The position numbers and the translations under genes are program-made. 64,000 nucleotides of DNA from Haliclystus octoradiatus. Lineage: Eukaryota > Cnidaria > Staurozoa > Stauromedusae > Haliclystidae. Positions within the stretch are counted from its first letter, which is position 1, and each line of letters opens with the position of its first letter. Below, piece by piece: positions 1,989 through 28,254 of the stretch. Location of the stretch: assembly GCA_916610825.1 (NCBI GenBank), contig OU744450.1, forward strand, positions 20,762,814 to 20,826,813, read 5' to 3'. Below the pieces are notes generated by a model. That model had not been told where the DNA came from, did not search any database, and was given only the letters and a program-made list of their open reading frames with translations.

Positions 1989-3344
1989 TCATTCAGGCTT
2001 CAGTAAATGTTTTTTCCTCAAAATCAGAGCACAAGATAATAGACCTGTAATTGTAGCAAACGTAATACTTGTTATTATTGTACTATTAAACCAAAGTGAA
2101 GTAACAAACCCAGAAAATAATATACCAATTGAGCGTGGAATTAATCGAACACCTTCAGAAATTCCTTGCAGCTCAAGAGGTACCAATCTAGCAACTAATG
2201 TTCTACTATGCACAGTATCTATTATCCAAGTCATTGCAATAAGTCCTGCCCATATGTAAGTCAACCATTTTACACCAGGAAAATTGTACATACAAAGTAA
2301 TATACACGATGCCAATGTTGGACCAAATGAAGTAATAACAGTAGAATAATAGACGTCTAGTCTACTACCACATATAATAAAAAACAAGTTGATGATTGAA
2401 TCAGCCATTCCAGTTATGAAATAACAAATTCGAATCTGATCAACACTGAAATTCTCCCATTCAACTCCAACCAATGGGATCAAAGCTTCACATGCCATCA
2501 AAATCATTCCCCAAACAAAAATGCATACATACAACAATAATAAGTTAGGATTGGATAGTAATATAAAACAGCTTCTTGAAAATAAGGTGCTATTTTGAGG
2601 TAAGTTTTGAGGGGTCTGTTTATTGTTTTCATTGTTAATTTCAAGAAGTCTATTACTGTCATATAGATCTGACATCAATGCACTACTTTCAGGATAATTG
2701 TTTTTTGACTTTTCAATATCTTCACTGTTATGCAGAAATGGAATGATCAAAATTTGAATAATTAGCAATAAACCACACGTGAGAAATCCAGGAGCATTTG
2801 TTGAATGAATATAAAAGCCACGAAATTCAAAATTAATATCATTAAGTGCAAAGTTTAATAAAGGGCCAAATGTATTTCCAAGTGCTAGACCAAGATTGAT
2901 AGCACTAATAGCTGTAGTCAAATGACGTGGTTCCACCATGCGTGCCATTTCTGATGTACTGATTGAAGACATACCATGAAAACCACCGCGTATCGTTAGA
3001 CCAAATAGCATAACAAATACATTTGAAGGGATACTGTAGATAAATGTTCCGATAATACCACACGCCGTCGAAAAAGATATCCAATATTTTGCCTTGCCAA
3101 AACGATCACATAAATATCCAAATAATAGTGAGAAAAAAGCTCCGGTGACAGGACTATTAGCTGTTAAAAGTCCTGCATACAATGGAATATTTTGAGCTTT
3201 GATTTCTTTCAGATAGAATACCATCTGAATTAATCGCATGGCGAAGTCCATGCCAAGCGCAAAGTTTAACAATGAATAGATGATGCAGGTGGAATATATT
3301 TTGTAGTTTGCATTTTTGCAACATAATGTTGCAAATCTTTTCAT
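1989..3344 (-). CDS. MFSD8/CLN7-like major facilitator transporter, copy 1
   Basis: An intact intronless frame of 451 aa with about 12 hydrophobic segments in two halves joined by a polar loop (roughly residues 210-265), the major facilitator superfamily plan. An MFS motif-A-like stretch, GYLCDRFGKAKYW, lies after TM2 (about 76-88). The blocks SEMARMVEPRHLTTAIS and MACEALIPLVGVEW match the pattern I know from MFSD8/CLN7, a lysosomal membrane transporter; the substrate cannot be read from sequence. The start is the first ATG and aligns with an internal ATG of the paralogue at 13073-14461. The absence of introns in both copies hints at retroposition or an intronless expanded family. A 155 bp segment (2818-2972) is identical to the paralogue while both sides diverge, suggesting gene conversion. 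Another MFS subfamily is possible. Confidence 0.7.
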   Translation of the reverse strand: MKRFATLCCKNANYKIYSTCIIYSLLNFALGMDFAMRLIQMVFYLKEIKAQNIPLYAGLLTANSPVTGAFFSLLFGYLCDRFGKAKYWISFSTACGIIGTFIYSIPSNVFVMLFGLTIRGGFHGMSSISTSEMARMVEPRHLTTAISAINLGLALGNTFGPLLNFALNDINFEFRGFYIHSTNAPGFLTCGLLLIIQILIIPFLHNSEDIEKSKNNYPESSALMSDLYDSNRLLEINNENNKQTPQNLPQNSTLFSRSCFILLSNPNLLLLYVCIFVWGMILMACEALIPLVGVEWENFSVDQIRICYFITGMADSIINLFFIICGSRLDVYYSTVITSFGPTLASCILLCMYNFPGVKWLTYIWAGLIAMTWIIDTVHSRTLVARLVPLELQGISEGVRLIPRSIGILFSGFVTSLWFNSTIITSITFATITGLLSCALILRKKHLLKPE

Positions 3345-4622
3345 TTGATTATGTATGTTGATTCTACAATTCTAGTCGAGAGCGGACAACTGCGAGCCAG
3401 CGTGTCATGAAATTAGTCGAGTCGTATCCAACATATGAAAGCAAATTGACCATCATTCATACGAGTCATTCTCAAGCGATTCGATGAATTCAAAAGGCAA
3501 ACAACCCTATCTGTAACAATTAAATCCAACAATGCAGGACACTAGTGTTTAAAACCTTGTAGTGTAGATAACAAATCAAGATACATACTTCTGTTAAGTT
3601 AAAAATATTCAAATTGATCTATATATCGGAGCGCGTTTTGTGACGCTTCGAACAAATTTCTTTAACATAAACAAAAATAGCAGTGAAATTAAATGATTAA
3701 ATGCATGAGAAAGCAAGAAACATTATGCTAAAGAAAACTATCTTCAGAATCTTTAGAAATCACTGTCGGAATCATTTAAATGGAAAGAAAGAAAGCATTC
3801 AATTAAGGAAACATACAAACGCATGACTGATCAAATTAAAAACATGTAAAATGCCTGTGTGTTTATTGATAAGTTATGTACGGTGGTTCACAACTGTCAC
3901 GGTACAAACTTTACAGAACGCATAAAACAATAGAAAAAACACACGACATGAACTTATTTTACGACACAAATAAAAAAAGTCACTCGCGAAAATGAGGCTA
4001 TGGTAAGGAGGGCTTGCCTAAGTATCAATTTATGGACTATAGTAAGCAGCTCTTACTGTTGAACAAGGTAATTAAGAAGAAGTTGAAGTATATTGAGTTA
4101 TGGCAAGAAAAGCATTGCACTCAGGAACAATCTAATCGTGACTGGCGGTTGGAGCAATATCAGCTTATCCCTACCTGTCCTCGGTCTTACTCTTAGCACG
4201 AAATACTATCAAATGACCTTCAAACCACTGCCAAGACGCATTAAAAGTAAACAACAAACAAATGATTCAATTTATACCTGTTTACAGAATAACGAAGATT
4301 ATCCTTGGACCATCTTTGATAATACCATCGTTTAATTCGTTTTGGGCTAAGGAATTATGCAGAGAACTTGAGTACGGGGACATGATTTTTGTGAAGGTGA
4401 AAGCTGATCCATAAAGTGGTCCTGCATTACTTAGGATTGGACATGCTATTCAGCCTGCAGTTCGAACGTGGATTGCACAGGTAAATTTTATGCAAAAAGT
4501 AAACAGTGAAATTAAACGACGGTGGAAATTCAGTGGAAATTGGGCAGCATTGCCTATGCAGTCAATCAGAATATGAATTGATGTTGGCATGTGATGCAGA
4601 AAAATAATGTAGTTTAAAATGC
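3345..4622. other. Upstream region of transporter 1 and unassigned ORF fragments
   Basis: 3345-4000 is non-coding; the stretch around 3460-3500 (with CATTCTCAA and ATGAATTCAAA) resembles 14598-14640 upstream of the paralogue, so some 5' flanking sequence may be duplicated. 4014-4450 holds two short overlapping plus-strand frames and a possible continuation in another frame up to about 4410 (containing FWAKELCRELEYGDM). It could be a broken gene or exon remnant, but I do not recognise it. Confidence 0.35.
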
Positions 4623-6528: not shown

Positions 6529-9500
6529 TCAGTCGTTATTATTGTACTTTTTCTCTACTTTCATTCTCAACACTTGGTCATCTTTCAATTCATCAGCAGT
6601 GGCAATCAGGACCAGTTTATGAATTGGTCTGGTAAAGTAACCCTTCTTTGTTTTGATTTTTACCGTGCGTACCAATCCATCTTTTCCTCCTTTTTTAACC
6701 TCTATAACATAATCACCGACTTGTAAATTTGCCCGAGCATGGTACCAGCGGTTTCTAATATTTAATTGTGGAGGCATGTACTTCTGCCATTCTTTCCAGA
6801 ATACGGTGATTCGGCTTTGCACTAAATCCATTCTTTGTTTTGGATTCAAACGTTCTTGCTGTAAAAGTGGCTGATCTACTGTGATATTGTTCCCATGTAA
6901 AATACTGTTTGGTGTTATAAATCCAGCCTCATCTAATGGGTCGATTGAATTGGATGGAAATAATGGCCTCGAATTTACAAGATATGATACTTCATAAAGT
7001 ATGGTAGACCACTCATCTGGCATCAGTTTTCTATTGTCATCGCTCATAATAAGCTCCATTGCCTTCCTCACACTGCGTATCAATGACTCTACTGCCCCAT
7101 TCATGTGAGATGCAGTAGGTGGATTCCACATCCAATCAAGATCTTTGTTTTTCATATTATTTTCCTTTAAAATTTCATCCCAATTATCAATCATCTTTTT
7201 CCACAATGGTGCTGCACCTGTCAAATTGGTACCTCCGTCTGTGTACATAATGTTTGGTCTGTTTCCTCTAATTGATACAAATCTTCTCATTGCCAAGAGT
7301 AACTTTTCTGTCGTTAGCCCTACTCCTCCTTCTGTTTGGTCATATAAAAGCTCTAGAAGAATTGCACGTGTCGTTAGGCAAGTAAATATAACGACATTTC
7401 CTTGACTACTTTTGTTTCTTGTTAATTTGACTGAAAATGGTCCAAAGCAGTCTGCTGCAGTTGACTCGAATGGAGCTAATTCTTTCATCATGCGAAATGT
7501 CGGTATTTCACCCATCTTTTGTTCTAATAATGGTCTGTTTACAACTCTGCATTCTAAGCATTCTTTGCCAACTGTAAATAGATATCTGGAAATTCCAATG
7601 ATCCAATAGCCATCTGCTTCAATTGCTGCTTGTATCCTACGTTTTCCTCCATGTCCAGTCTTTGTATGGTAATGTGATGCTATCTTTTTGCAATGTTCCC
7701 TTTTGGTACAATGATTGGTGCAACTGCTTCTTTGGGTAGCCAGGTGATTTTGCCAAGACGTCCACCAACTCTGTAAACTAGATCATCATTATCTAAGGTT
7801 GGACAAAGTTTTTTGTATGTCTTACTGTTGAAATCTACATTCTGCTGTAAGCTTTGCATGATGATATTACCAGACTTTTCACCATTTCCCAGTTCTTTCT
7901 CAACTGCAGATATGGCATCTGGCCAGGTGAGTTGTTTCTCTGCAATTGTTAATATCTTTTGGGTCTTCAACACATCTAGTTTCACCATTGCCAATTTTGC
8001 ACATTTTTGCTTAATCTTCGATTTCTTCTTTTTGCCAGTTGTATCCATTCTAACTTCTTTATCTTCTTCATCTTGACTGGACAGCAGAAGTTCAGAAGGC
8101 CAGTTTTCTTCATCTTCTTCCAAGAATTTTGGTCCCTTCTTCCATTATTCAAGTTTGTCAAGTGGTATTGGCTTTGTGAGTTCATCTGCTGGATTCATCG
8201 GGCCAGGAACATAACGAAAGTGCTCAGGCGACAACGTTTCTTGAATTTCGGAAACTCTAGCTTGCACAAATGCTTTAAATTTCTTTGAGCTTGATCTTAT
8301 CCATTGTAATGCAGTTAGTGAATCCGACCAACATGTGACTTTCTCAATCTTTGTCTTCAAAGACTTCATAACCAAATCTACCAATCTTGTCATAATTACA
8401 GTACCAACCAGCTCAATACGTGGAATACTTCGCATTCGTAATGGTGTAACGAGAGCTTTGGCACAGACAAATACAATTTTGAAAGTTCCATCTACCATTG
8501 GCCATCTTAAATATATTACAGCCCCATACGCGTCTAAACTTCCGTCAGAGAATGCATGAACTTGAGGGACATCCATTGCAGAACCAGGCTTTAGACATCT
8601 TGCAGTGATGATGTCATCGATTGGTTGTAGGTCATTCAGTCTTTTCTTCGATAATTCTTGTTCTTCATTTGGTAGCATGGCATCCCATCCAACTCCTCTC
8701 TCCCCGAGCTTCTGTAGTTCAATTTTTGGACCAATAGTTACAGCAGCTTCAAATCCAAATGGATCCCAGATTTTTGCTAATTTGCTCAAGATAACTCTCT
8801 TTGTGATTACTTCAGGAGCATCGCTTCTGCTTACACCAAGTTTGATAGTGTCTTCATCTTTGTCCCACAAATGACCCAATATTTTCACTTTTCTTTCATC
8901 TTTCTGTTGATCAATTGTTTCCAATTCTTTAACATTGGAATGCCAGCCTTTAACTTTGAATCCACTTTTTTGTAATACGTAGTCAACTTCTACGATTGTT
9001 TGTTTAGCTCCTTTGATGCTTTGATTCGATGTAGCGATATCGTCAACATATATGTCATTTTGTTTTGCTGCTTGTAAAGTGTCAATAAATATGGATTTCC
9101 AACAGAAGTAGTCTTTTAAATCACCATTCCATGTGTCAGGCTGAATTGCTCCAAGACGTACAGAACTTTTGTCTTTTGCTTTAACTTTGGATAGTTCAAG
9201 AAATATTTTTTGATTGAAATCATTCACATCCTTTTGACCTTGTGCTAATTCAGTGAGCTTGTTCAATGCATCACTGATATCACTTACATTACTGTTACTA
9301 CTTTTGCCAAATTCTGAAACTGATTCAATTGCAACAATTTCTTCTGTTACAAGATTATCTGTACTGTTTGTATTTACTTCTACTACATCGTCCTTCTCTT
9401 TATTAGATTTGTCTTGTGCATTGATACTTTCAACACATACAGTTTTGTCTGTAATCATAGTTTCTGCAATAACAGTTTTTTCTTTTAAACTTAATGTAGC

Positions 9501-9885
9501 TAAAAGTTCTTCATGTTGTCTTTGCCTTTCTCGCTCAGACCTTATGATTCTTTGTTCTTCTTGAGATTGTTGCACAACAGCTTTCTTAATTCTGGCCATA
9601 CACAATCTTCCTGAAGTTAAATCACTTTTGTATTTTGAAACTAAATCTTCATAATTTTCAGTTTCTTCCTCTTGTATTGTGCCCAAAGTTGTGGCATTCT
9701 GAATATATTCCTTTGTGCACTCTTCAAATTTCTCCACAAGGGCATTAAATTCCTTCCACAAGTACTCTAGAGCATCAATATCTAGCTTCTCATCAATTTC
9801 CAGATTAAAATTCTCTCTAGATCTTAGTAGTTTTTTCTCAACTTTGTTAACTTTTTTGAGATCTTTCTTGTTGAATTCCAGTCAT
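6529..9885 (-). pseudogene. BEL/Pao gag-pol pseudogene with deleted gag-protease-RT segment
   Basis: Minus-strand open stretches 9761-8145, 8123-7680 and 7515-6529 belong to one gag-pol. The first carries a coiled-coil, Glu/Lys-rich Gag N-terminus and a Gag WNGDLKDYFCWKSIF block, then jumps directly to the RT core at NDIYVDDIA. The rest of Gag, the protease and the first part of RT are therefore gone, in frame. RNase H follows (AFSDGS, PRIELVG, CWSDS). A TAA at 8147-8145 interrupts the frame; the same frame then continues to a TAG at 7682-7680, which appears to result from a one-base change in an A-run near 7685-7690. After that the zinc-binding HHCC region and integrase core are readable, with the DDE residues present (AADCFGPF, MYTDGGTNL, GAVESL). 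The ATG at 9885 also lies one base out of frame with the downstream Gag. Confidence 0.85.
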
Positions 9886-13072: not shown

Positions 13073-14461
13073 TCAAGAAAATTGGATAACCATTTTTCTA
13101 GGCTTTACTAAGTCTTTTCTCCTCCTAATCAAAGCAAAAGATAGGAGACCAGTAATAACAGCAAACGTGATACTTATTAAGATTGTATGATTAAACCAAA
13201 GTGAAGTAGCAACCCCTGCAATTACTACCCCAGTTGAACGGGGAATTAAACGAATGCCTTCGGAAAGTCCTTGTAGTTCAACAGGGACTAACGTAGAGAT
13301 CAATGCCCTACTTAGTACAGAATCTACCATCCAACCCATTGAAAGAAGTGCTGCCAATATATAAATTAACCACTTTGTATGAGAAAAATAATAAATACAG
13401 AGTAACATACATGATACTAATGTTGGACCAAATGATGCCACCACAGTAGCATAATACACATTAATTCTACTTCCATTTATGACAAATAGAATGCTAATGA
13501 TTGAATAAGCAATCCCGGTTATGAAATAGCAAATTCGAATCTCATCAGCACTGAAATTCTCCCATTCAACGCCAACCAATGGGAGCAAAGCTTCAGATGA
13601 CATCAAAATTAATGCCCCAAAAAAAACGCATGTATACAATAATATTAGATTAGGATTGGATAATAAAGGACGACATCTTGAAAAGAAGGTGCTATTCTGA
13701 GGTAAATTTTGAAAAGATTTCTTTGTCAATAGAAAATTCTTTCCATTGTTAACTTCAATTGTGTAATTCTCGTTTCCTTCGTCTGGAATCAATGCGGTCC
13801 TTTCAGTACAATTGTTGTTGTATTTATCTAGTAGATCTTCGCTGTTGTGTAGAAATGGAATAATCAACATTTGAATAATTAACAATACTACACATATAAG
13901 GAATCCAGGAGCATTTGTTGAATGAATGTAAAATCCACGAAATTCAAAATTAATATCATTAAGTGCAAAGTTTAATAAAGGGCCAAATGTATTTCCAAGT
14001 GCTAGACCAAGATTGATAGCACTAATAGCTGTAGTCAAATGACGTGGTTCCACCATGCGTGCCATTTCTGATGTACTGATTGAAGACATTCCAAGCAAAG
14101 CACCACGTATTATCAAGCCCAATAGCATAACAAATACATTTGAAGGGATACTGTAGATAAATATTCCAATGAATCCACCCATAGTTGAAAACGATATCCA
14201 ATATTTTGCTTTGCCAAAACGATCACATAAATGTCCAAACAAAACAGAGAAAAGAACGCCGGTGATAGCACTGCTAGATGATAAAATTCCCTGATATAAA
14301 GGAATATTTTTGGCTTTAATTTCTTTTAGATAAAACACTATTTGAATTAATCGCATGCTAAAATCCATACCAAGGGTAAAGTTTAGTAAGGAATAGATAA
14401 TACAACTGGAATATATTTTGTATTTTGTACTTTTGAAATAAGCTGTTGCAAGTCTTTTCAT
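13073..14461 (-). CDS. MFSD8/CLN7-like major facilitator transporter, copy 2
   Basis: Full-length paralogue of the 1989-3344 gene with the same ~12-TM plan, motif-A-like stretch (GHLCDRFGKAKYW) and second-half signature (MSSEALLPLVGVEW). The open frame extends upstream to an ATG at 14548, giving 491 aa, but homology with copy 1 begins at the ATG at 14461 (MKRLAT versus MKRFAT). I therefore prefer that start, giving 462 aa; the upstream 29 residues are unsupported. The loop between the halves and the last ~12 residues differ most from copy 1. A 155 bp block (13935-14089) is identical to copy 1. No intron is visible. It is likely a lysosomal or vesicular transporter by family; the substrate is unknown. 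Confidence 0.7.
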   Translation of the reverse strand: MKRLATAYFKSTKYKIYSSCIIYSLLNFTLGMDFSMRLIQIVFYLKEIKAKNIPLYQGILSSSSAITGVLFSVLFGHLCDRFGKAKYWISFSTMGGFIGIFIYSIPSNVFVMLLGLIIRGALLGMSSISTSEMARMVEPRHLTTAISAINLGLALGNTFGPLLNFALNDINFEFRGFYIHSTNAPGFLICVVLLIIQMLIIPFLHNSEDLLDKYNNNCTERTALIPDEGNENYTIEVNNGKNFLLTKKSFQNLPQNSTFFSRCRPLLSNPNLILLYTCVFFGALILMSSEALLPLVGVEWENFSADEIRICYFITGIAYSIISILFVINGSRINVYYATVVASFGPTLVSCMLLCIYYFSHTKWLIYILAALLSMGWMVDSVLSRALISTLVPVELQGLSEGIRLIPRSTGVVIAGVATSLWFNHTILISITFAVITGLLSFALIRRRKDLVKPRKMVIQFS

Positions 14462-15739
14462 AAACATTTCAAGCCGATTTATGTTGAATTCAAGTTGATA
14501 GTAGAATAACCGTGAAATAAAAATAAATACATTTTTTGATCCATTCAACTTAAGTCATTTAATGCCATATTTAAAAATGGAAGTCATCGCGTCTTTCAAA
14601 GAGAGCCATTCTCAAATGGTGCAATGAATTCAAATGGAATACAAGCCCTTGTGCCATACTTCCAAAGAGGAGAAACTTCGCTTTGTAGAACAACATTGAA
14701 TACGGTATTGTACTGTAGATAATACATACAAGATAAACAGTCTGAAATATCGAAATATGTAGGTAATAATAATTGCATATAGTGCAAATAGTTATGTTTA
14801 GTATATGTGAGGAGGCCCTCTCAGAGTCTCAGGCAGGGGCGAATTCAAAGGTGGTCGAGTCGAGTAGATCGATCGACCCCCATAATATTTTCCAAAATTA
14901 TGTCTCAGTTTTAAAATGTTTTTAACAATGTGGTAAGTTTTATTGTAAAATCTATTGTCTAGTAAAGCTAGAAAATGAAAGTCGAGGAAAGTGTTGATTA
15001 ATGTGTCACGGGTGACGTATTTCGTGCAATTGAAGGATCGATTGACCACCGACATTGAATCACAACAATACTTACAATAGATTCGAAAATTTAGACAACT
15101 GACCGATCAGGGTTGAAGATAAGCTTTGATTGGCTAGAAAACAATGAAGCATCCCGGTGCTTCTCCCAGTTGTAAGCTGGGATTGGTAACTTTTCTTTTG
15201 TTAAACAATTGCTCGATCTCCGACTCGAGTTGAGAATTTTGTAGATAAAAGTATGAAAAAACAATGTCACTGATTGGTGGAAAACAAAAACAATGGACCA
15301 ATCTGCACGACCTGAACTATCGGGAATTTTGTAGATTAGATTAATCAGATCAGTTCAGTCTTGATAATTGAAAGTGAGACTCCAAAAAATGGATTCTTCT
15401 TGTCTTTTCTTGAAGAAAATGGCTGCAACGAAATCTTCTGAATGCATTCTTCTTGCTTTTTCAAACGATAACAACCATGTTAGTCTATTGAAAGATATAG
15501 CAAATGATTAGGTTAAAGAACTGTTCTGTTTCTAATCATGACAATTCACTTGGAATATTTTCCTTGTTAGCAATGTTGTGTAAGTGTTTAGTACCAGTAA
15601 TGTGATTATGTTACATTAGATATAATATATTTGATAAATAAATATATCTCTTTTTATCAGTAGTTGAAAGAAAGTTATAGGCATACTGACAGATGTTAGT
15701 AGATTTGTCATAAATTAGCCTATAGATGTGTAAGAACTA
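14462..15739. other. Intergenic DNA upstream of transporter 2
   Basis: No convincing gene. 14598-14640 resembles sequence upstream of transporter 1. 14798-15055 is open on the minus strand for 85 codons without recognisable motifs. A 40-codon plus-strand frame (15389-15511) with internally duplicated codons has no other support. Confidence 0.35.
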
Positions 15740-16854: not shown

Positions 16855-17036
16855 AAGAATCTTTAAAGCAGTGTCCATTGGAAAAGAATGGAAATATACA
16901 TGATAAGACTGCTAAATCAAGAGCCAAAAGTGCAGAAAAAACGTCAAAGAAAAAAATTAAGCAAGAAAAGAAAGAAAAGATATCAAAGCAATTAAACAAA
17001 ATAGTACAGTCATTATATGAAATGACCCACCACTAA
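16855..17036 (+). pseudogene. Lysine-rich terminal-exon candidate split by the TIR transposon
   Basis: After a plausible 3' splice site (TATTCATTCATATAG, ending 16854) a frame of 60 codons encodes a strongly Lys/Glu-rich tail (EKTSKKKIKQEKKEK) and now stops at 17034-17036 inside the transposon's left inverted repeat. If the element and one TA copy are removed (joining 17003 to 27724), the same frame continues with 15 more codons of similar Lys/Asn-rich sequence, then stops at TAA. This supports a host coding exon that was interrupted. No upstream exon has been identified, so the gene is unknown; simple A-rich sequence remains an alternative. Confidence 0.4.
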
Positions 17037-17128
17037 TTGCAACAGAAATTATTTTTGCAGTTTCTAGTGTCAAATTTAATGTTTAATAACATATCAAAAC
17101 TCTAGAAAAATCTTTTGCGGCGAAATAG
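17004..17128 (+). repeat. Left terminal inverted repeat (125 bp)
   Basis: Starts GTACAGTCATT and ends GCGGCGAAATAG. It matches the reverse complement of 27587-27721, with about 94 percent identity over the inner 98 bp. Confidence 0.85.
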
Positions 17129-17672
17129 CCCAATTGCGCAATTTAGTTTTAGTTACTTCTGTATTAGCATGAAAGTGAGGTTACCCATGTTTAGCATACC
17201 CAGGTATTGAAATATGACAAAATAACACTTGATGTTACGAGTCTGGATGATTGGAGTCATATTAAATAAATAAAAATGATTTACATCGGCAACAAAAGAA
17301 ATCCTCAAAACGAGGCTACAGATTAGGACAAAGCAGGTGTACATTAAAATGAGACAAACAAGCATTCGCGATGTGCATTTTATTAACATAATAGGTAAAT
17401 TAGAAATAAATAAGAGGAATAGAACATTAATTTCAAAAATAGCATGAACTATTAACTCATATAGCCTATACATAATACATTGAGTTGCTACATAATCACA
17501 GAGATATTCACTACATGACAACAATCTTTTACAACCCGCAGATTGAACCTGAAGAAAATATAGAAAAATAAATGCAATGAAATAAAGTATAATCAAATCT
17601 TGAAGACTTCTATTGTCTCAAAGAATATTCTAATCAGATTTTCTTCCTATTTAACAATTATTTATAATAAAG
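17129..17672. other. Transposon 3' non-coding region
   Basis: Lies between the left TIR and the stop codon of the 1453-aa gene and probably holds its 3' UTR. A hydrophobic minus-strand frame of 147 codons (17153-17596) is open, but its composition looks like AT-rich chance translation with no motif, so I do not call it a gene. Confidence 0.4.
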
Positions 17673-20600
17673 TTATGTATCGAGTACTTCGTTACTGTCT
17701 GTTTTCATTGAATTTGCACATGCTACACCTTTGCATTGTCCGCAAGCAGAAGTGCATGGAAGGTTGTGCCGCTTACAATTACATCGTTTAGTTGTACAAC
17801 CAGTAGCGCAGGAACAACGAATTATTTTCAAAAGTTCATCAGGAGCTGGTGGTAAAGATGTTAGCACAGGTTTAAAATTATTGTCTTGAAGGTACCATCC
17901 CCAGTTGGAAGGGTCTATGTCGTCGTTATTCCTCCATACCTCAACTTGATAAAACACACGAAGGCTATGATTAGCAGCTGCTGCAGAAGTGGGGGGTAAC
18001 TGTTTAGGATGCAGCTGTTTTGAAAGATGTGTGACTTTATCTGAATATTTATGATATCTCAAATCATTGAGACTGCATCCTTCTTCACCTCCATATAGAC
18101 ATGACACCATCCTTTCTCCAGCCTCTATAACTTGATCCATCGTACTGCTGCTAGTGTTAAAAATTAAGGATTGTTTGCGAAAATATGCGGACTTGATAAA
18201 TAACTTCAATGCAGCTGCCTTTCCAATTCCAAATAATCGCGACGTTGTGTCACATCCTAGAATAGCATGGATTAAAAGAATATTTTTACAAATATCAGGT
18301 CCGAGTGAAGCAGTGACTGCCTTGATATCCCACGAACGGTGTATCTTAGTTTTTGCTTTTGGCTCAGGTCTAAAAAATAGTTTGTGTAAGTCAGGTGAAG
18401 AATAGTATAAAAGTAAAATGATAAGATCAGTGTCATCACCAACTAATGTAGTGTTCTTTAAACGTGCTCTTGCTATTGCGGTTTTGACAATTAATAAATC
18501 TGCATCATCTGCAGCATGTGCTGTTACAATTCCATTGGCACTTAACTTTTGACTAAGCAATAATATAAAAGATTGTTTGTTTGAAGTGTTTGTTAAAAAA
18601 GACTCTTTTGTGACAGTGAGATGTGTTTCACCAGTAAAAATAATGTCAGTACACGATTTACCCTTTGCTCGGCTGCTTTGTGTTGCACCTTTGACAGAAG
18701 CACCATGATAGCCATCAAATACAACAAAAACGTCTGAATACTTTTTTTTGACATAATTAACATAAATATCACAGATCTCATTAAAGCTTGAGCCTCTTGA
18801 CCATGGTAACTTATGCAGAAGAGCTCCTCCATCTAAAACATAACAAGAATCTGCGGGAACCTCACAACTTTTGACATTAGACATTTTCCAAATTGCATCA
18901 GCTAAAGCTGGCTTATCAGGCTTTCTCATTTGTAGATATTCATCAAATAGAGCAGGTGGGTAACTACATAACTCATATTTGAAGAGAGACGACACATCCT
19001 CTTGAGTATTTGTGACAATTAGAAGGCGCTGGAAAAGAAGCTGTGGATCAACATAAACTAGTTCACCATCGATTTGAATTGAATATTTCGCACCAAGTGT
19101 TACAGCTTGATTCATTTTCTTGAATGTATAACTTTCAACTTCTTTATCTAACATACCATCAATAATCTTCTTACCTATACTCAACGATGAATCTACATTA
19201 ACATTTGTATCCGCTACAACACCATTGACTATATTGCATAATGGTTTATCTTTTTCAAAGGGATTGTGTTCTTGTAATGCTTTGAGCAGAATCTTCATAT
19301 CATTATTGTCTCTGATGATTGTTGATGCAGAAATGTCTTGATTTTGTTCACTGGTAGCATATGAAACATCTGTAAATTCTAGCATAGCATCATTAATTTC
19401 AGCACATGCAGGCATTGACAGGAGCCAAATATTCCTCTGTTCCTCTGTCATTCCTCGCCCCCTGGTCAACCCACCGCTTGTTTTGAGACTCCTCATTAGT
19501 ACCTGCTCAATAACCAGGTCAGTAGAAAGTCCACCCCAATAACGTGAACTCCTCCGTGCAACATGATACCCTTTTTGCAATTTTAAGTACACATTTGAAT
19601 TTGAAGATTTTAATTGTACCATTGATTGAAGATACAACCATAATGATTTAACATATAAATTATGACCTGCAGCAGCAAGGTATGGCATCATACGGTTTAA
19701 GGCTTGCAAATGTAGGTTAAAATTACCAGTCCTTTCAGCTTTGATAAATTGAAGTAAAATTTCAACCATATCCATATATTGGAGCCATAAGCACGCAGTT
19801 CTAGTATTTTTGAATGTGTTTTTGAAGTCGAGAAGTTTACCTGATAATGTCTCAAATACTTCATTTTTACAGATTCCTTCCAATGTTTGAGATTTAGATA
19901 TTAAACTATTGTACAGGTCACAAAGTACTTTCAAAGTAGAATCACAATGGGTTTGATCTACAACTTCAGAAGATTGTTTAAAAATATTTGAAAAACATTG
20001 TGTATTTAAAGCAGCATACATCAATATGTGAGCTCTCACTCCCCGCCTTATAGCTTTGCCGGTCATCATATGGATCACAGCATTGGGTGCATAAATTAAT
20101 TCTAATATTTCTGTTAGACCTGACCCATTCATCAAATGTCCAATTGCACCAATATAACTCATTTCAGCATGGAAACCACCAATACGTAATATGATGTCAT
20201 TTAAACTACTAGTAGGTTCCTCACATGCAACAATATTGATAGCCTTCCACCATAGAGGTTGGTCAAAAGTTACAATGGGTGTTAAACCATGTCGCTTTGC
20301 ATGATCAGCAATAAATGTTAAACATGAATAAATACAAACGGGATCAGTTGATTTCAAATCAAGCATCGGTAAAAATTTAAATGATGACACTCCTGGATAG
20401 TCCCCAAATAAAAAACTTCTAAAAAAACCAGCCCAAGAAAGAATGTGCTCATCAAAAATCATTGAAACTCTCCAAAGTAAGTCTAAATTAGAAGTACTGT
20501 CGGGCACTTGAGGAATTGTGAGCTTTTTATATAAAAAAATTGTTTTAGCTCGCTGTGGTTGTGGGTATCTAATAGAAACTTTACCAATGTCAATAATATC

Positions 20601-22034
20601 TTTGTTTGGTATAAAAAGACGTGGTACAAAAAGGTTTGAATATACAGCTGGAGTGACAGTAGCAATCATTCCCATGCCATGGAAGGTATCATGACCATCT
20701 AATGTAACAATGTTATGGTCTACGTTATCTGCAACATATTGTAAAAATTCACCATTGTGATTGTGTATATCAATACCACCATAGACTGCAGCATTTCTAT
20801 TGAATTTTTGCACTTCATTATATGAACTGCAAAAGCCATGAGCATGCAAAGAATCAATTAAGAACCTAGACGCAAAATGGTGATGTAATTGAACACCTAG
20901 GCCAATTTGGAGTGGTGCCAATAATACACGAGGTCGAGCAGCTTGCATTATTGATTGACCAATAGAAGCAACTTTCTTCTTTGCTTTTTTGTTACAAATA
21001 ATACCATCGAGTAGTAGCTTCAAAGATGAAGGGAGATATTGCAATGAAGCATTTATGTCTCTCATTTCAGATGAACCTGGATATACTTGACAATTAGTAT
21101 CAACTGATTTGATATCACTAAGGATGAATTTGGCAGCAGCTTTAATGATATGTTCCTTTTCTGAGTCTTGATTGCTGTAATTGGATGAGTGAAATTTGTT
21201 CAAAATAGCATCAGCAGTACTTTTGAATGTTACTACGTTACTTTTACCATTAATTTCTGAAATAATCATCTCATTACCAAAACGTTCTAATAATTTCGAC
21301 TTCATATGAGTATGACCATAAGGCTGAGAATTGGAATTGGAAAGTTCTGTGTCCATGACAGCAATTAAATCAGTAACAGTAATCTGCTCGTCGTCATATT
21401 CTAAAATATAATCACAGACCTTGCTGAAAGCAAGATCTCTTGCAATACTTGCTGGCCTGCCAGATTTCTTCCTTTTTGCCAATGGTTCTTCTGTTTGAAA
21501 GTTGATAGGAATATCCTTTTTGGTTCTGAAATTCACACTACAACTGTTGTGATAGATGGCATCTGCTGCTGGTAAATCATGGACACTATCAAATCTAGTT
21601 TGAACCATTTTTGACCAAGAATCTTGACGATCTGCGCAGACAGTCTTCAAGCTTGCTTGTAAATCGATAGTTCGAACATACCATTTTCTCTTTCTTTTCC
21701 TTTCTTTTTCTATGTTGACATAATTACCACAAAAAAGGCAATCTGATTTGAAATTAAAAGCACTTGTACCAGATCTAAGTGGTTTTAAATTACTTGAGAT
21801 TGCAGAATCAATGTTTATATCGAGACGGTTTGATTGAATAATTTTGTTTGGATTACAATGCAATCTTCGGCATTCCTCATGTACCTTTTGCCCAGTAGCT
21901 GTATTTATTGTGGTATCATTTCTTTCTAAACTTGCTTTGTTAATCCCTATGCTACCTTTGTGCCCCAAAGTAGCAACATGTTGATTATCATCTAATTGTT
22001 TCTTGCAGATTACACAATAAATTGAAAAATCCAT
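17673..22034 (-). CDS. Transposon protein: Cys/His-rich N-terminus, RNase H-like core, FEN1/XPG-like nuclease, CXC domain
   Basis: Intact 1453-aa frame. The N-terminus has metal-ligand-like pairs (C7/C10, H52-C55, C99/C102, H162-C165). Residues ~440-640 contain VTLDGHDTFHG (D446, D449), IVTFDQPLWWKA (D591) and GGFHAEMSYIGAIG (H622, E624), a spacing that could be an RNase H-fold D-D-E transposase core; this is inference. A conserved-looking block RYWGGLSTDLVIEQVLMRS lies at ~832-850. Residues ~1060-1290 look like a FEN1/XPG/PIN nuclease: CYVLDGG (D1068), VFVVFDG (D1107), AADDAD (1175-1179), VGDDTD (1198-1203) and LGCDTTSRLFGIGKAAA, which mirrors the FEN1 GCDY...GIG helix-turn-helix. Residues 1407-1439 (CSCATGC...CNC...C...C..C) form one Tesmin/TSO1 CXC motif, a DNA-binding type. 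Similar proteins of unknown function are, from memory, widespread in invertebrates. A gypsy element lies 48 bp upstream of the ATG. Confidence 0.8.
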   Translation of the reverse strand: MDFSIYCVICKKQLDDNQHVATLGHKGSIGINKASLERNDTTINTATGQKVHEECRRLHCNPNKIIQSNRLDINIDSAISSNLKPLRSGTSAFNFKSDCLFCGNYVNIEKERKRKRKWYVRTIDLQASLKTVCADRQDSWSKMVQTRFDSVHDLPAADAIYHNSCSVNFRTKKDIPINFQTEEPLAKRKKSGRPASIARDLAFSKVCDYILEYDDEQITVTDLIAVMDTELSNSNSQPYGHTHMKSKLLERFGNEMIISEINGKSNVVTFKSTADAILNKFHSSNYSNQDSEKEHIIKAAAKFILSDIKSVDTNCQVYPGSSEMRDINASLQYLPSSLKLLLDGIICNKKAKKKVASIGQSIMQAARPRVLLAPLQIGLGVQLHHHFASRFLIDSLHAHGFCSSYNEVQKFNRNAAVYGGIDIHNHNGEFLQYVADNVDHNIVTLDGHDTFHGMGMIATVTPAVYSNLFVPRLFIPNKDIIDIGKVSIRYPQPQRAKTIFLYKKLTIPQVPDSTSNLDLLWRVSMIFDEHILSWAGFFRSFLFGDYPGVSSFKFLPMLDLKSTDPVCIYSCLTFIADHAKRHGLTPIVTFDQPLWWKAINIVACEEPTSSLNDIILRIGGFHAEMSYIGAIGHLMNGSGLTEILELIYAPNAVIHMMTGKAIRRGVRAHILMYAALNTQCFSNIFKQSSEVVDQTHCDSTLKVLCDLYNSLISKSQTLEGICKNEVFETLSGKLLDFKNTFKNTRTACLWLQYMDMVEILLQFIKAERTGNFNLHLQALNRMMPYLAAAGHNLYVKSLWLYLQSMVQLKSSNSNVYLKLQKGYHVARRSSRYWGGLSTDLVIEQVLMRSLKTSGGLTRGRGMTEEQRNIWLLSMPACAEINDAMLEFTDVSYATSEQNQDISASTIIRDNNDMKILLKALQEHNPFEKDKPLCNIVNGVVADTNVNVDSSLSIGKKIIDGMLDKEVESYTFKKMNQAVTLGAKYSIQIDGELVYVDPQLLFQRLLIVTNTQEDVSSLFKYELCSYPPALFDEYLQMRKPDKPALADAIWKMSNVKSCEVPADSCYVLDGGALLHKLPWSRGSSFNEICDIYVNYVKKKYSDVFVVFDGYHGASVKGATQSSRAKGKSCTDIIFTGETHLTVTKESFLTNTSNKQSFILLLSQKLSANGIVTAHAADDADLLIVKTAIARARLKNTTLVGDDTDLIILLLYYSSPDLHKLFFRPEPKAKTKIHRSWDIKAVTASLGPDICKNILLIHAILGCDTTSRLFGIGKAAALKLFIKSAYFRKQSLIFNTSSSTMDQVIEAGERMVSCLYGGEEGCSLNDLRYHKYSDKVTHLSKQLHPKQLPPTSAAAANHSLRVFYQVEVWRNNDDIDPSNWGWYLQDNNFKPVLTSLPPAPDELLKIIRCSCATGCTTKRCNCKRHNLPCTSACGQCKGVACANSMKTDSNEVLDT

Positions 22035-22082
22035 TACAATAAATTACACATTGAACTATTGAAGCCAAAACTGTCTGACGAG

Positions 22083-22239
22083 TGTAGTATTATGTGAATA
22101 AGCTAGAACTTGAGACGAGAGAATAAACGTTGTTGATCACAGAACAGTATATTAGAATCTAAACTAAAACTATAAATGACACGATTATGTTTACAGGAAG
22201 TATATCAATATTGTAATGTAAATAAGTTGTAATAGCACA
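22083..22239 (-). repeat. 3' LTR of the nested gypsy element (157 bp)
   Basis: Identical to the 5' LTR. Its outer edge abuts ACGAG at 22078-22082, matching the bases after the other LTR. Confidence 0.95.
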
Positions 22240-22252
22240 TGCCCTTTCTGGG
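22240..22252 (-). promoter_or_regulatory. Polypurine tract of the gypsy element
   Basis: Minus strand reads CCCAGAAAGGGCA just before the 3' LTR. The AGAAAGGG core fits a plus-strand primer. Confidence 0.55.
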
Positions 22253-22285
22253 AGATTATAGAAATATACATGTAATGAATATTGA

Positions 22286-25200
22286 TTATAAATTTAGTTT
22301 ATTAGTTTTGTTTTTCTTTCTAGTGCTGCGTCTAGGTGGTGAATGTAATGATGCACTAGATGTATTTGTTGATGGTTCTTCCTCCTCTGGGGTGGTTGAA
22401 GCAGCAGCTGTAGTTGATGTTGATGGACCATAGTACCGGCGGAGTTGACGGCGGTTGCGCCAGTAGAGTCGACCAGATTCGGTTTTTAGGCGATAGCTGC
22501 GTCCTCGAGGATCAATAGAGACAATTTCTCCAATGCGATCCCAATGTTTGGTATTCTGATTTTGGATGCGGACAATATCACCAGGAATGAATGGATCAAG
22601 GCGGCGAGCATGAAGGTCATGTTGTTGTTTTGCTTTTTCTTTTAGCGTGCTTGCTTTCTTGTCTGCAATAATAATTAGTTGCTTGATGTCATCAGTGAAT
22701 TGCGATGGATGAATTGGGATTCGTGACCGAAGAGGTTTGCCAAATAAACGCTGGGCTGGACTGATACCATCACTTCTTGGTGTATTACGGTATTCCAATA
22801 GAGCTTTGTAGAAGGCTTCTGTGTTGAGGTGTCCATTTGTTGTTACTTTGGCGACAATATTTTCCATAGCTTTGACAGCAGCTTCTGCATGTCCGTTGGC
22901 TTGATGATGGTATGGTGACGACGGGTCGTGAATTATGCCCCAATCTTTGCAGAATGCTGAAAATGCATGACTTGAAAACTGCGGTCCACCATCAGACGTT
23001 AAGCGAATAGGGACACCCATGCTACAGAACCAGCTGGATAGAATATCGACGACGGTGTCTGTATCGGTGCTCTTGCCACAGTGTACAACGTGAGGCCAAC
23101 CAGAGTACTTATCGGTGATGACAAGGAATTCGTGGCCATGGTGTGAGAAAATGTCTGTTGCAATCGCTTCACCAGGACGAGTTGGTGGTGTGTCTTGAAT
23201 AAGTGGCTCATGTGAGTTGGATGACAGTCTTTGGGCACATTCTTCGCATGACCGAATTCGATTTGTGACTTCGTTGGTCATATTTGGCCAAAAAATACAT
23301 TGTCGAGCTCGTGCAAGAGTTCGAGTTAGACCAAGATGAGATGTGTGGAGTTCATTCAGCATAGTCGATCGAAGAGATTTTGGGATAAGAATGCGATCTT
23401 GGTAGAGGATGATTGATGATTCCAAGAGTGACAGATCGTGACGTAGTGACCAATAGGGGTGAATGCTGATGTCCAGTTTTTCCTTCTGTTGTGGGAAGCC
23501 ATTAATGATCAGGTCAGCTAGCTTGAGATGTACTGCGTCATTTTCACCTGCAGATTTGACTTTGTTGAGAGTTGCGTCTGGTGGAAAGTTGGTAGCATCA
23601 GTTGATTGAAGACGAGTTTGGATGTGATTTACTTGGAAGCTTGAATCAGCATCTGTATCAATGTTGACATCGTCTGGACTTGGTTGATCAACTGGATGTC
23701 GTGAGAAGCAATCGACGACGGTGTGACTTGTACCAGCACGCCAGATAGCAGTGAATGAAAATGATGATAACTTTTCTTTGAGGCGAATGATTCTTGCACT
23801 TGGAATTTGGTGCAGACGCTTGTCATTGAGGATGGATATTAGTGGCTTGTGGTCGACAATTAGGTTAAATGATGACCCATGTAAAAACATTTTGCACTTC
23901 TGGGTTGCCCAAACGACTGCGGCCAATTCAATTTCAGTAGCAGAGTAGCGGGACTCTGCATCAGTGACAAAGCGTGAACCACATTGTAGGAGGCGCCAAG
24001 TTTTGTCATCTTGTTCGGACCATAGAGCATAGCCAAGTCCTTTAGATTGTGCAGCATCTGTTTCAAGTCGGAGTTGAGCTTGTGGATTGAAATGAGCAAG
24101 GATGCGTGGACTAGTTAGTTCATTGATGAGGCCTTTGAATGCATCTTGGTGGAGTTGATTCCAATAGAAAGATGTTGAAGGTGACAGTAGAGCTCGTAGT
24201 GGTGTTGCCAGTTGTGAAATTTCAGATGAAAATGATTCAAACTGTTGTACCAGACCAAGGAAAGAGCGTAGTTGCGTCAATGATGTTGGTTGTGGAAATT
24301 CTGTCAATGCAGTAACCAGGCGAGGATTTAACGTGTAACCAGTTGAAGTAATAACATACCCACACCATTCAGCAGATGATTGAGCAAAATGAAATTTCTT
24401 TTTATTCAAGGTGATACCATTATCAGAGCATCTCTTTAAGACGTCTTTGACTCGTTTGATGTGTGTGTCATAGTCTTTGTCGTAGATGATGACGTCTTCC
24501 ACCACTTTCTGTAGGTTGTCAATGCCAGCCAATGCTTCATCTCCACGTCGGTTGTGCTCATCGCCAGCGCTGATAAGACCCATGACATTCCTTCTAAAGC
24601 GGTAACAGCCCCAGGGTGTGATGAATGTAGTGAGCGGTCTTGATTCAGTAGCCAGAGGTACTTGCCAGTAGCCATGACGGGCGTCCAAGGTAGTGAAGTA
24701 TTTCATTCCAGGCGGGATGTTGGCGATCAGATCTCGTGGTGTGCGTGATGGATAACCAGGTCTTTTGACAAACCGATTTAGTGATGTGAGATCAACTGTG
24801 ATTCTTGGCTCTGTAGAGTTCTTCTTTGGAACGACAACCATAGGGTGAATCCATTGTGGTGATTCGTTCAAAGGAACTTTTTCTATGATGTCCTTTGTGA
24901 TCATCGAATCTAGTTGTGCTTGTACCAATTTCTGCCACTTAAACGGTATATTATACGCTTTGTATTGGCGAGTAGGTGTGGCGTCTTCGGTCAGCTCTAT
25001 CTTCATTGCAGGGCCATCCATTTTCCGTAGTGGTCCTGTGTCAGTGAAAACAGAAGAGAATTCCTTTATAAGTTGTGTGGCGTCATCGTTGGAAGATTGC
25101 TGTGTTGGTAGATTGATGTGATGAGCTTCTTGGTCAGTGCTTGCCAATAGAGACACAGTGTTGACAGGAGTAGCTGCTGATAAGTCTGGCCAGTTTTCAG

Positions 25201-26638
25201 GAATAAGACCCAACGCAATGCATCCTTTTTTGCTTAGTAATGGTGCATTGACAGCGTCCACCACATGAATGTCAGCAGTGTATTGATTGTTGTTAAGTTT
25301 GATTGTCAGAGAACAGCGACCAAGTGTTGATAGAGGTGTTGAATTAGCTGTAAATAGTTGATCAGTAGCTGGCTTCAACTTTAATAAAAGGTCACAGTTT
25401 AATGCCTTTAAATGTTGAACACTTAGGACGTCACATGCAGCACCAGTGTCAGGTAGCCAATGAAGGTATGAGGGTCCATGTTCATGTGTAGTTAGTAGCT
25501 TGATTGTATCAGTTGTATTTGACAATGCATTAAGATATACATGGTTAGTATTTGGTTGATGTGATGATCTTTTTTTTGCTTTGCAAACTGATTGATAGTG
25601 TCCTAACTTGTCACAAAATCCACATATAGCTTCTTTTGCTGGGCATTCGGCTCTTGAATGCTTTTGCTTGCCACAAAAATAACATTTAGGTGTATGTTCA
25701 TTAGAGCTGTTGTTGTCTTGACGACCAGTATTTGATTTTTCTGATTTCTTGTAAGGCTTCTTGCTTTTGATTGCTGAGACATTAATTGTTGAAGAGGTTG
25801 CTAACTTGTCTTGTGTTGTCTTACTTGCCTCGTGAGATGTACAAATGTCTAATGTTTTCTTTAATGTAAGCGTAGAAAATTTTTCTGCCAGGACTTTTTG
25901 TTGCGTGTCAACATCGCGGAGGCCACATATTAGACGGTCCCGCAGTCTTTCGTCCCGCATGTTTTGTGATATTCCTGTGTCTGCGTGACATGTTTCGCAT
26001 GTTAACTCAGGGGAAAACCCACAGCTTTCATCAAGCGTGCGTAGAACGGCGTAGTATTGATCTATCGTCTCATCAGGAAGTTGGTCCCTGTTGTGAAATT
26101 CTTTTCGATCAAGCAGTGGATTTCGTTTATCTCGAAGATAATGACTAAATTTGTCTATTATTGCGTCTGTATCATCGATATCGTTGACCAAGATTACTTT
26201 GGCTGTCCACAACTTTGACCAATCGTCGTGAATTGCAGATCTTAGTATGCCTCTTCGAGCAGCGAGATTGCAGTCTGTTGACAAACGTGTCGCAGCAGCG
26301 TAACCTGAAAATCGTTCTTCCCAATCACGAAAATCGGCAATAGTTATCTTCGAAGGACTTTTTAATGTTGGTATGTCCATTCTTTTGGCTGAACCCGAGT
26401 GAGATTCGTTATTTCTGTGTTTTGAAGTTGCTTTAGCGACGGATTGCAGAGCGGCGGTAAAAGCTTGTTGTTGTTGCTGTAAAATGGCGTTAAACCATGG
26501 CGGAATATCTCCTGAAGGTAGATTAATAGAAGATGCCAAAGGTATTATTGGATCGTGAGAATCAGAATTATCAGAGAATTCTTCATCACCAGCAGTGCTT
26601 GTGGAAGCTTTTTCATTCTGACGTGTCTCCATTGGCAT
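22286..26638 (-). CDS. Gag-Pol polyprotein of the nested Ty3/gypsy element
   Basis: 1450 aa in one frame. Gag includes two intact zinc knuckles (C319-C322-H327-C332 and C339-C342-H347-C352). The protease has LPDTGA (D397). RT has the LDARHGYWQ block (D652), but the catalytic box reads VVED (712-715) where Y/F-x-D-D is expected. RNase H has D861, the EIE at 902-904 and D929. Integrase has the HHCC zinc site (H1098, H1101, C1131, C1134) and a D1162, D1216, E1252 core with the DD35E spacing, followed by a basic C-terminal region (HWDRIGEIVSID) and a Ser/Thr/Lys-rich tail. Domain order PR-RT-RH-IN fits Ty3/gypsy. The ATG at 26638 is the first in frame, 108 bp past the primer-binding site region. 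The protein copies and inserts the element's own DNA. Confidence 0.93.
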   Translation of the reverse strand: MPMETRQNEKASTSTAGDEEFSDNSDSHDPIIPLASSINLPSGDIPPWFNAILQQQQQAFTAALQSVAKATSKHRNNESHSGSAKRMDIPTLKSPSKITIADFRDWEERFSGYAAATRLSTDCNLAARRGILRSAIHDDWSKLWTAKVILVNDIDDTDAIIDKFSHYLRDKRNPLLDRKEFHNRDQLPDETIDQYYAVLRTLDESCGFSPELTCETCHADTGISQNMRDERLRDRLICGLRDVDTQQKVLAEKFSTLTLKKTLDICTSHEASKTTQDKLATSSTINVSAIKSKKPYKKSEKSNTGRQDNNSSNEHTPKCYFCGKQKHSRAECPAKEAICGFCDKLGHYQSVCKAKKRSSHQPNTNHVYLNALSNTTDTIKLLTTHEHGPSYLHWLPDTGAACDVLSVQHLKALNCDLLLKLKPATDQLFTANSTPLSTLGRCSLTIKLNNNQYTADIHVVDAVNAPLLSKKGCIALGLIPENWPDLSAATPVNTVSLLASTDQEAHHINLPTQQSSNDDATQLIKEFSSVFTDTGPLRKMDGPAMKIELTEDATPTRQYKAYNIPFKWQKLVQAQLDSMITKDIIEKVPLNESPQWIHPMVVVPKKNSTEPRITVDLTSLNRFVKRPGYPSRTPRDLIANIPPGMKYFTTLDARHGYWQVPLATESRPLTTFITPWGCYRFRRNVMGLISAGDEHNRRGDEALAGIDNLQKVVEDVIIYDKDYDTHIKRVKDVLKRCSDNGITLNKKKFHFAQSSAEWCGYVITSTGYTLNPRLVTALTEFPQPTSLTQLRSFLGLVQQFESFSSEISQLATPLRALLSPSTSFYWNQLHQDAFKGLINELTSPRILAHFNPQAQLRLETDAAQSKGLGYALWSEQDDKTWRLLQCGSRFVTDAESRYSATEIELAAVVWATQKCKMFLHGSSFNLIVDHKPLISILNDKRLHQIPSARIIRLKEKLSSFSFTAIWRAGTSHTVVDCFSRHPVDQPSPDDVNIDTDADSSFQVNHIQTRLQSTDATNFPPDATLNKVKSAGENDAVHLKLADLIINGFPQQKEKLDISIHPYWSLRHDLSLLESSIILYQDRILIPKSLRSTMLNELHTSHLGLTRTLARARQCIFWPNMTNEVTNRIRSCEECAQRLSSNSHEPLIQDTPPTRPGEAIATDIFSHHGHEFLVITDKYSGWPHVVHCGKSTDTDTVVDILSSWFCSMGVPIRLTSDGGPQFSSHAFSAFCKDWGIIHDPSSPYHHQANGHAEAAVKAMENIVAKVTTNGHLNTEAFYKALLEYRNTPRSDGISPAQRLFGKPLRSRIPIHPSQFTDDIKQLIIIADKKASTLKEKAKQQHDLHARRLDPFIPGDIVRIQNQNTKHWDRIGEIVSIDPRGRSYRLKTESGRLYWRNRRQLRRYYGPSTSTTAAASTTPEEEEPSTNTSSASLHSPPRRSTRKKNKTNKLNL

Positions 26639-26745
26639 AATGTAAACAACACGAACAGTAAGATGAATGAAAAATATGAACCAATAAATATACCAAACGA
26701 AGACGAAGGTATAAATAACAAATCAACAATAACAATCCCAAAGTT

Positions 26746-26763
26746 CGAATAATCGCAGCGCCA
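26746..26763 (-). promoter_or_regulatory. Primer-binding site of the gypsy element
   Basis: Minus strand reads TGGCGCTGCGATTATTCG immediately after the 5' LTR. The leading TGG is complementary to a tRNA CCA end; the tRNA identity is not resolved. Confidence 0.65.
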
Positions 26764-26920
26764 TGTAGTATTATGTGAATAAGCTAGAACTTGAGACGAG
26801 AGAATAAACGTTGTTGATCACAGAACAGTATATTAGAATCTAAACTAAAACTATAAATGACACGATTATGTTTACAGGAAGTATATCAATATTGTAATGT
26901 AAATAAGTTGTAATAGCACA
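26764..26920 (-). repeat. 5' LTR of the nested gypsy element (157 bp)
   Basis: Starts TGTGCTATTACAAC and ends ATAATACTACA on the minus strand; identical to 22083-22239. Short for a Ty3/gypsy LTR. Confidence 0.95.
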
Positions 26921-26925
26921 ACGAG

Positions 26926-27586
26926 TTAAATATCAATTTGATGCAATATATTTTGAAAGACATATGCCATAGGCTTTTACTGCTTTTCATAGCAATGATC
27001 AAGCCAAAATAAATTCAAGAAAATAACATTTATATAAAAATAGCAATAAATTTAGTAATAAAACATCATGGATGGAGGGGTGACATCCGACATTTTCAAG
27101 CTTAATAAACAGCCTGCAAATGACCAACAGGTATATGCAACAAGACAGCAATAGACAGCTAAATTTTCGGAGCTGCTTTTATTCTTATAATGGATACATT
27201 TTATGAATGACGAGTGCAATAATCGTCAGCTAGTTAATTGCCCAGGTGATCTACACAAATGTCAACGCCATTTGCCATGACGCCATCAGGTTTTCCCTTC
27301 TTTGTGAACGGTGAAAATAACCACTTTAGATAAAAACACAACACTGTAACTTACCTTGAGGTTGGCACTACGCTGTTTTATCCTTCAAAAACCTTTATGT
27401 GACATCTTTCCTCTGTAAATTGGTATTAAAAGAGCCCTAACAACCGCAAGTAAATAATAATCGCCTTCGTTTTTGACCAAACTGCCATTATGAATGTATT
27501 GTCTTGACTGCCATAATGGCGTCAGTGGTCATGGCAGAGAAGAGAAATTTGGATGAAAATTTGTCAACTTTAAACATGAAATAATG
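26926..27586. other. Transposon 5' non-coding region
   Basis: Sequence between the gypsy element and the right TIR. Before the gypsy insertion it was joined to 22082 and would hold the promoter and 5' leader of the 1453-aa gene. No ORF. Imperfect inverted motifs (GCCATGACGCCATCA near 27275 and TGGCGTCAGTGGTCATGGC near 27515) could be subterminal binding sites. Confidence 0.4.
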
Positions 27587-27721
27587 CTATTTCGCCGCAA
27601 AAGATTTTTCTAGAGTTTTGATATGTTGTTAAGCATTAAATTTGACACGAGAAACTGCAAATGTAGTTTCTGTTGCAATTAGTGATGGGTTGAGGTCTAT
27701 TTGGCCTTAAAATGACTGTAC
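27587..27721 (-). repeat. Right terminal inverted repeat (135 bp)
   Basis: Reverse complement of the left repeat, about 10 bp longer in the subterminal part near 27690-27710. Followed directly by the TA at 27722-27723. Confidence 0.85.
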
Positions 27722-27723
27722 TA

Positions 27724-28254
27724 AAAAGATCAAACAACAACCTAAAAAAGAAGAAAAATGAAAGTAAATAATAAAGTTTAATAGTTTAATAATGGACATG
27801 GCTGCAAACAATAGGTATTATATGATTTTTAAAATCTTTATTTGTGAAACTTTTTATCAGATAACAATATATAAATGTGATGTATATTTTAACTAAGTTA
27901 TCAATAAATGTAATAATGATTTATATCTGCAATGAATGGAATTTAAACGGAAATTGGATTTTATAGAATGGAAACGTTTTGAAATATCAAGTTAGCAACT
28001 GTATACGCGTGTGTGTTGTTAGGCTTTTTTGTAGAAATGTTCATAATTAGTATACATTTGTATTTGTACTTATGGTTAACATGCTTGAAGATACTTTATA
28101 GATCATTTATTTATAGCATTTGAATGCGTTCTGTTACCAACTATATGCTGTATAGTCAAATTCTAATTTCAATACAGTATAATCAATAATATTATAGCAG
28201 ATAAAAATATTATATATTCAGTACAGTTAAATCTGTTGTAGTGCACATTTCTAT
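27724..28254. other. AT-rich non-coding DNA
   Basis: The first ~50 bp continue the lysine-rich frame of the exon at 16855 (stop near 27769). Beyond that I see no feature. Confidence 0.35.

Follow-up and report, generated by a model that had tools for sequence, protein, structure and literature searches.

AcademX elements carry a nuclease of the XPG type. In the excerpted text of PMC10045372, AcademX target duplications are 3 or 4 bp and those of AcademH 9 or 10 bp, and these sizes are tied to the encoded nuclease or helicase, respectively. An excerpt of PMC10294476 gives 100 curated consensus sequences for bivalve Academ, with a mean length of 5565 bp, close to the 5597 bp of one copy (L009) of the element described here. 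That element lies in a 64,000-nt window of the Haliclystus octoradiatus genome (assembly GCA_916610825.1, contig OU744450.1, positions 20,762,814-20,826,813, forward strand), and positions given without a contig refer to this window. We consider it very likely to be a DNA transposon that matches AcademX in content and in its 3-4 bp duplications, with a 1453-residue protein, predicted to join a DDE-type to a FEN1/XPG-type domain, as its likely transposase.

Boundaries, copies and target duplications

The element and its parts are as follows.

17002..27723, unstranded: very probable AcademX-type element with termini TAG...CTA and a nested gypsy inside; boundaries set via empty sites of sister copies
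16998..17001, plus strand: target duplication AAAA, left copy (3 or 4 bp)
27724..27727, plus strand: target duplication AAAA, right copy (3 or 4 bp)
17002..17129, plus strand: left terminal inverted repeat, beginning TAGTACAGTCATT
27586..27723, minus strand: right terminal inverted repeat
22083..26920, minus strand: gypsy-type long terminal repeat (LTR) element nested in the transposon, with identical LTRs of 157 bp
17673..22034, minus strand: single-frame gene, 1453 amino acids, likely transposase
21525..22034, minus strand: N-terminal Cys/His motifs, residues 1-170, possible zinc fingers, which would bind zinc
19455..20747, minus strand: predicted DDE-type catalytic domain, residues 430-860, with D436/D439, D591 and E843; DUF6589-like in relatives
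17910..18917, minus strand: FEN1/EXO1/XPG-type nuclease domain, about residues 1040-1375
17712..17822, minus strand: C-terminal CXC cysteine cluster, residues 1405-1441, cysteines conserved

A preliminary description of this locus, made from the sequence alone, had claimed inverted ends, an intact 1453-codon gene and a later gypsy insertion, and all three hold. The inverted arms (17025-17129 and 27586-27690) extend for 105 nt with 93% complementarity, and the outer bases match too. The gypsy LTRs lie at 22083-22239 and 26764-26920, with ACGAG on either side of the insertion, which sits 48 bp upstream of the ATG of the 1453-residue gene. Such a position probably disturbs expression of the window copy, the gene itself being intact.

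The preliminary description also proposed searching the genome with the terminal repeat for gene-bearing copies, and asked whether the repeat pair might be unique. It is not. The left repeat gave 40 scored matches from 234 candidates in the animal's own genome (262 Mb; G000 in the coordinates below). The window and 20 retrieved stretches account for 26 of the 40, two of these being the window's own ends. Five copies have the same gene and both ends, namely the window, L009 (contig C8), L010 and L011 (C5), and L012 (C10). Their flanking DNA differs from copy to copy, and the full copies align to L009 with 98.5-100% identity per aligned piece; this near-identity means that movement was recent. 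The gene is uninterrupted in L009, has one in-frame stop in L012, lacks an inner part in L010, and is interrupted in L011. L009 is also without 286 nt beside its left terminal repeat, which the other four full copies have. Three other loci (L013-L015) contain the gene with one end only, and in 13 of the 20 loci (L016-L028) an end is present but tblastn gave no match to the gene within the retrieved stretch. One of the latter, L018 (6011-8683), is a 2.7 kb relative whose inverted repeats of ∼380 bp are 75% identical. It shows no match to the gene and, as judged by eye from the element ends, lies between copies of TCA; we take it for a member that is probably old and non-autonomous.

In each of the five copies the sequence is TA, GTACAGTCATT...AATGACTGTAC, TA, and the preliminary description had taken the TA on both sides of GTACAGTCATT for a target duplication. 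On that reading, the element would represent a novel superfamily of DNA transposons, one with TA-specific duplication, and a literature search is in keeping with this in so far as no FEN1/CXC transposon was described in the titles or abstracts among the matches listed. However, the TA beside GTACAGTCATT opens the terminal repeat TAGTACAGTCATT and hence belongs to the element; it is easily misread as a duplication because the element itself begins with TA. Outside TAG..CTA, direct repeats of 3-4 bp are present in 8/8 two-ended copies tested, five of them from the window family and three from a second family (L036; see below), of which one fourth place was excluded for lack of a recognisable left end. 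When flanks were mispaired as a control, repeats of at least 3 bp appeared in only 4 of 56 pairings. The duplications are AAAA, TTTT, TTA, CAA and TAA in the window family's five copies, followed by TAT, TTT and TTA in the other three. For the window copy the length is given as 3 or 4 bp, since one base may be concealed in a run of A.

Empty sites argue strongly against TA duplication. Searches with joined flanks as query were run for L009, L011, L012 and L040/41, and paralogous empty sites, a check that the preliminary description had called for, were found for two copies (L012 and L009). Among the 40 places scored in the L012 search, 16 agree at 110/110 bases and the remaining 24 at 96-99%. 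Two that were retrieved read CCTAACC, compared to CCTAA[TAG..CTA]TAACC at the filled site. The empty site thus lacks the extra TA, and its single TAA stands against two in the filled site. Hence the target duplication is TAA, and TA is part of the element. In the case of L009, the whole query aligns with four places at 98-99%, and the two of these that were retrieved have five T, versus four plus four T at the filled site, from which it follows that three bases were duplicated. No empty site was found for L011, for which only its own flanks match well and the right flank abuts another repeat, and the places related to L040/41 carry a small indel at the junction. As for the L009 insertion stretch itself, it has four element-free occurrences on the same contig (G000 C8:267920, 1280745, 1422182 and 2097961; 98-99% identity), so the region is a recent multi-copy segment.

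The empty sites rule out TA as the target duplication. They equally rule out the absence of any duplication, as 3 bp are duplicated. The comparison with Tc1/mariner, whose duplication is TA (2 bp), falls with the TA duplication on which the preliminary description had based it, and we regard a TA-specific superfamily as having almost no chance of being correct. That the element has moved is shown by five near-identical copies in different flanks, by their 3-4 bp duplications and by the empty sites found for two of them.

The 1453-residue protein and a second nuclease family

The 1453-residue protein has 474 relatives at E ≤ 0.001; in the viral and genome contig collections, no relative was confirmed by tblastn. 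For its middle region an RNase H fold is predicted, with the P element, Transib, Hermes and RAG1 as the nearest relatives in structure (VIA-align), and D436, D591 and E843 are conserved in 164/164 aligned proteins. Foldseek returned no matches for the transposase region at E ≤ 0.001 in PDB, and likewise in BFVD. Within the N-terminal motifs, H162 is conserved in 164/164 and C165 in 162/164 aligned proteins.

Near the C-terminus, the FEN1-like domain claimed in the preliminary description is upheld by fold matches and by conserved active-site acids. Apart from D1177, the six such acids tested are conserved in 163-164 of 164 proteins; D1177 is present in 115/115 proteins of the window group, the alignment being uneven there in the other group. 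As for the claimed CXC domain, its cysteines are conserved. In the window protein no Pfam CXC family reached cut-off, however, and neither did any Pfam XPG family; NCBIfam searches of the window protein and of protein P0003 were negative. The C-terminal domain resembles FEN1, EXO1 and XPG in fold and active-site acids, with 12-16% identity among the matches listed. Those proteins are separate repair enzymes, whereas here the domain is part of a likely transposase.

Given that the FEN1 fold is known from host repair proteins, the gene might be a passenger, captured from the host and carried in a transposon that is moved by another transposase. The many short relatives that have the ends and no gene (the 13 of 20 loci above) would also fit such an arrangement. 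Several observations argue against it. The protein has a predicted transposase fold and a conserved triad. L009 has no other open reading frame (ORF) exceeding 200 residues, in a listing with lower limits of 150 residues for the strand of the gene and 100 for the opposite one. Furthermore, full-length homologues of like layout are found in two families with different terminal repeats.

The second of these families is represented by L036 (G000 C10:6490500-6499500) and L037 (C7:11036500-11045500), elements of 6.6-6.7 kb that share 99.3% identity over 6 kb. Their terminal repeats, TAGTAGGGGAGCCAGG, are unlike those of the window family, and duplications in the L036 family are 3 bp. Each has one frame of 1542-1544 residues with CXC at its end, laid out as in the window family. 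Homology between the L036/L037 protein and the window protein covers most of the length (22% identity; hhalign E 3.8e-48), and the 74 relatives of the L036/L037 protein include some from Oculina, Branchiostoma and Nucella. As the same kind of protein lies between different ends, the gene is unlikely to be a passenger, and we place this explanation at the very margin of plausibility. The preliminary suggestion that this protein family is the transposase is most likely right, considering the five copies, the empty sites, the second family with other ends and the predicted DDE-type fold.

Helicase-bearing relatives and classification

In the animal's own genome, the profile of DUF6589, a Pfam family without a proper name, has 34 matches at E ≤ 0.01, with no window-family copy among them; in the control genomes, matches were found in 0/14. 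Two families were examined among these matches, L036/L037 and L038. The L038 family is 6.9 kb long (L038 1039-7911), with about ten similar places in G000 and ends TAGCCTGCGTGCAG. DUF6589 (E 2e-23) and a RecQ-type helicase (Helicase_C E 3e-14) are encoded on opposite strands, and the best PDB relatives of the helicase are RecQ4, WRN and RecQ. If the element is taken to include the TA, 7/7 two-ended copies have duplications of 8-9 bp; ten places were examined, three of which were excluded for want of a recognisable end.

By these features, the L038 family looks AcademH-like. Within one genome, it has in common with the window family the termini TAG...CTA and an ORF for a DUF6589 transposase, and it differs in that a RecQ-type helicase replaces the nuclease and duplications are 8-9 bp (9-10 bp for AcademH in the excerpt of PMC10045372). 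The direct hhalign match between the window family and the L038-family DUF6589 ORF is weak, so the link rests on partial DUF6589 matches in common, on the termini and on layout. DUF6589 may be the catalytic domain of Academ; the literature search found no paper mentioning it.

A nuclease with 3-4 bp duplications and a helicase with 8-9 bp duplications in one genome mirror the published split between AcademX and AcademH, and we therefore file the element as AcademX-type. In line with that assignment, it has duplications of 3-4 bp, a nuclease domain, terminal inverted repeats and a DDD/E domain (predicted fold and conserved acids). The assignment is very probably correct and rests on the published description. 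Compared by description only, as far as the excerpt of PMC10045372 goes, the likeness is a transposase with a nuclease and 3-4 bp duplications, and we found no difference.

A comparison with Academ by description, together with a similarity to the genome's helicase family that is weak at the sequence level, leaves some room for an undescribed lineage outside Academ that happens to have 3-4 bp duplications and similar partner enzymes. Such a lineage would, however, have to repeat the AcademX/AcademH pattern of PMC10045372 (as excerpted) in both of its halves, nuclease with 3-4 bp and helicase with 8-9 bp, in two families that are both DUF6589-like. We consider this improbable and retain the AcademX assignment. 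Of the undescribed transposon with its own protein that the preliminary description had proposed, the DNA transposon stands, while the lineage is very probably a known one, namely AcademX, with its nuclease and 3-4 bp duplications. What may be new is the particular family in the H. octoradiatus genome.

Other groups are more distant. The P element, hAT (Hermes), Transib and RAG1 share with the window protein the predicted RNase H fold and a long helical insertion preceding the final acid, at 7-11% identity. To our knowledge, none of these transposases has a fused FEN1-type nuclease. P and hAT duplicate about 8 bp (PMC3706591, in excerpt), compared to 3-4 bp here. Kolobok duplicates TTAA (PMC9587614, in excerpt), from which the repeats of all eight copies differ.

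Other features of the window and a possible mechanism

Elsewhere in the window, a 30.5 kb satellite array (29253-59760) consists of about 296 copies of a 103-bp unit with 95% match. On the minus strand, two ORFs that resemble each other and look transporter-like (1989-3371 and 13073-14554; 460 and 493 residues) are apparently duplicates, their function being judged by eye. Two further minus-strand ORFs (6529-9881) resemble pieces of an LTR retrotransposon polyprotein, again by eye.

As to how the transposase might work, the predicted RNase H-fold domain, with D436 or D439, D591 and E843, would generate the element's 3' ends and join them to target DNA with a 3 bp stagger. The FEN1-type domain could then remove the 5' strand, i.e. 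carry out second-strand processing, and the cysteine-rich parts may bind the element ends or the target. A comparable division of labour between strand cuts exists in TnsA and TnsB of Tn7. Extending this model, we tentatively suggest, as a possibility that could well prove wrong, a one-chain, two-nuclease transposase within the P/hAT/Transib/RAG clan. In it, the DDE domain would cut and transfer one strand and the FEN1-type domain would cut the other, an exchange of nuclease for RecQ would shift the stagger from 3 to 9 bp, DUF6589 would serve as the catalytic domain of Academ, and animal proteins of 1,400-1,550 residues, unnamed and numbering in the hundreds, would be transposases.

Collectively, these data provide a likely identity, that of AcademX transposase, for a large group of animal proteins that lack annotation. 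They also tie DUF6589 to a catalytic domain with a predicted fold like that of P, hAT and RAG. Because nuclease- and helicase-bearing relatives are present in one genome, with duplications of 3 versus 8-9 bp, the effect of the partner enzyme on stagger becomes testable.
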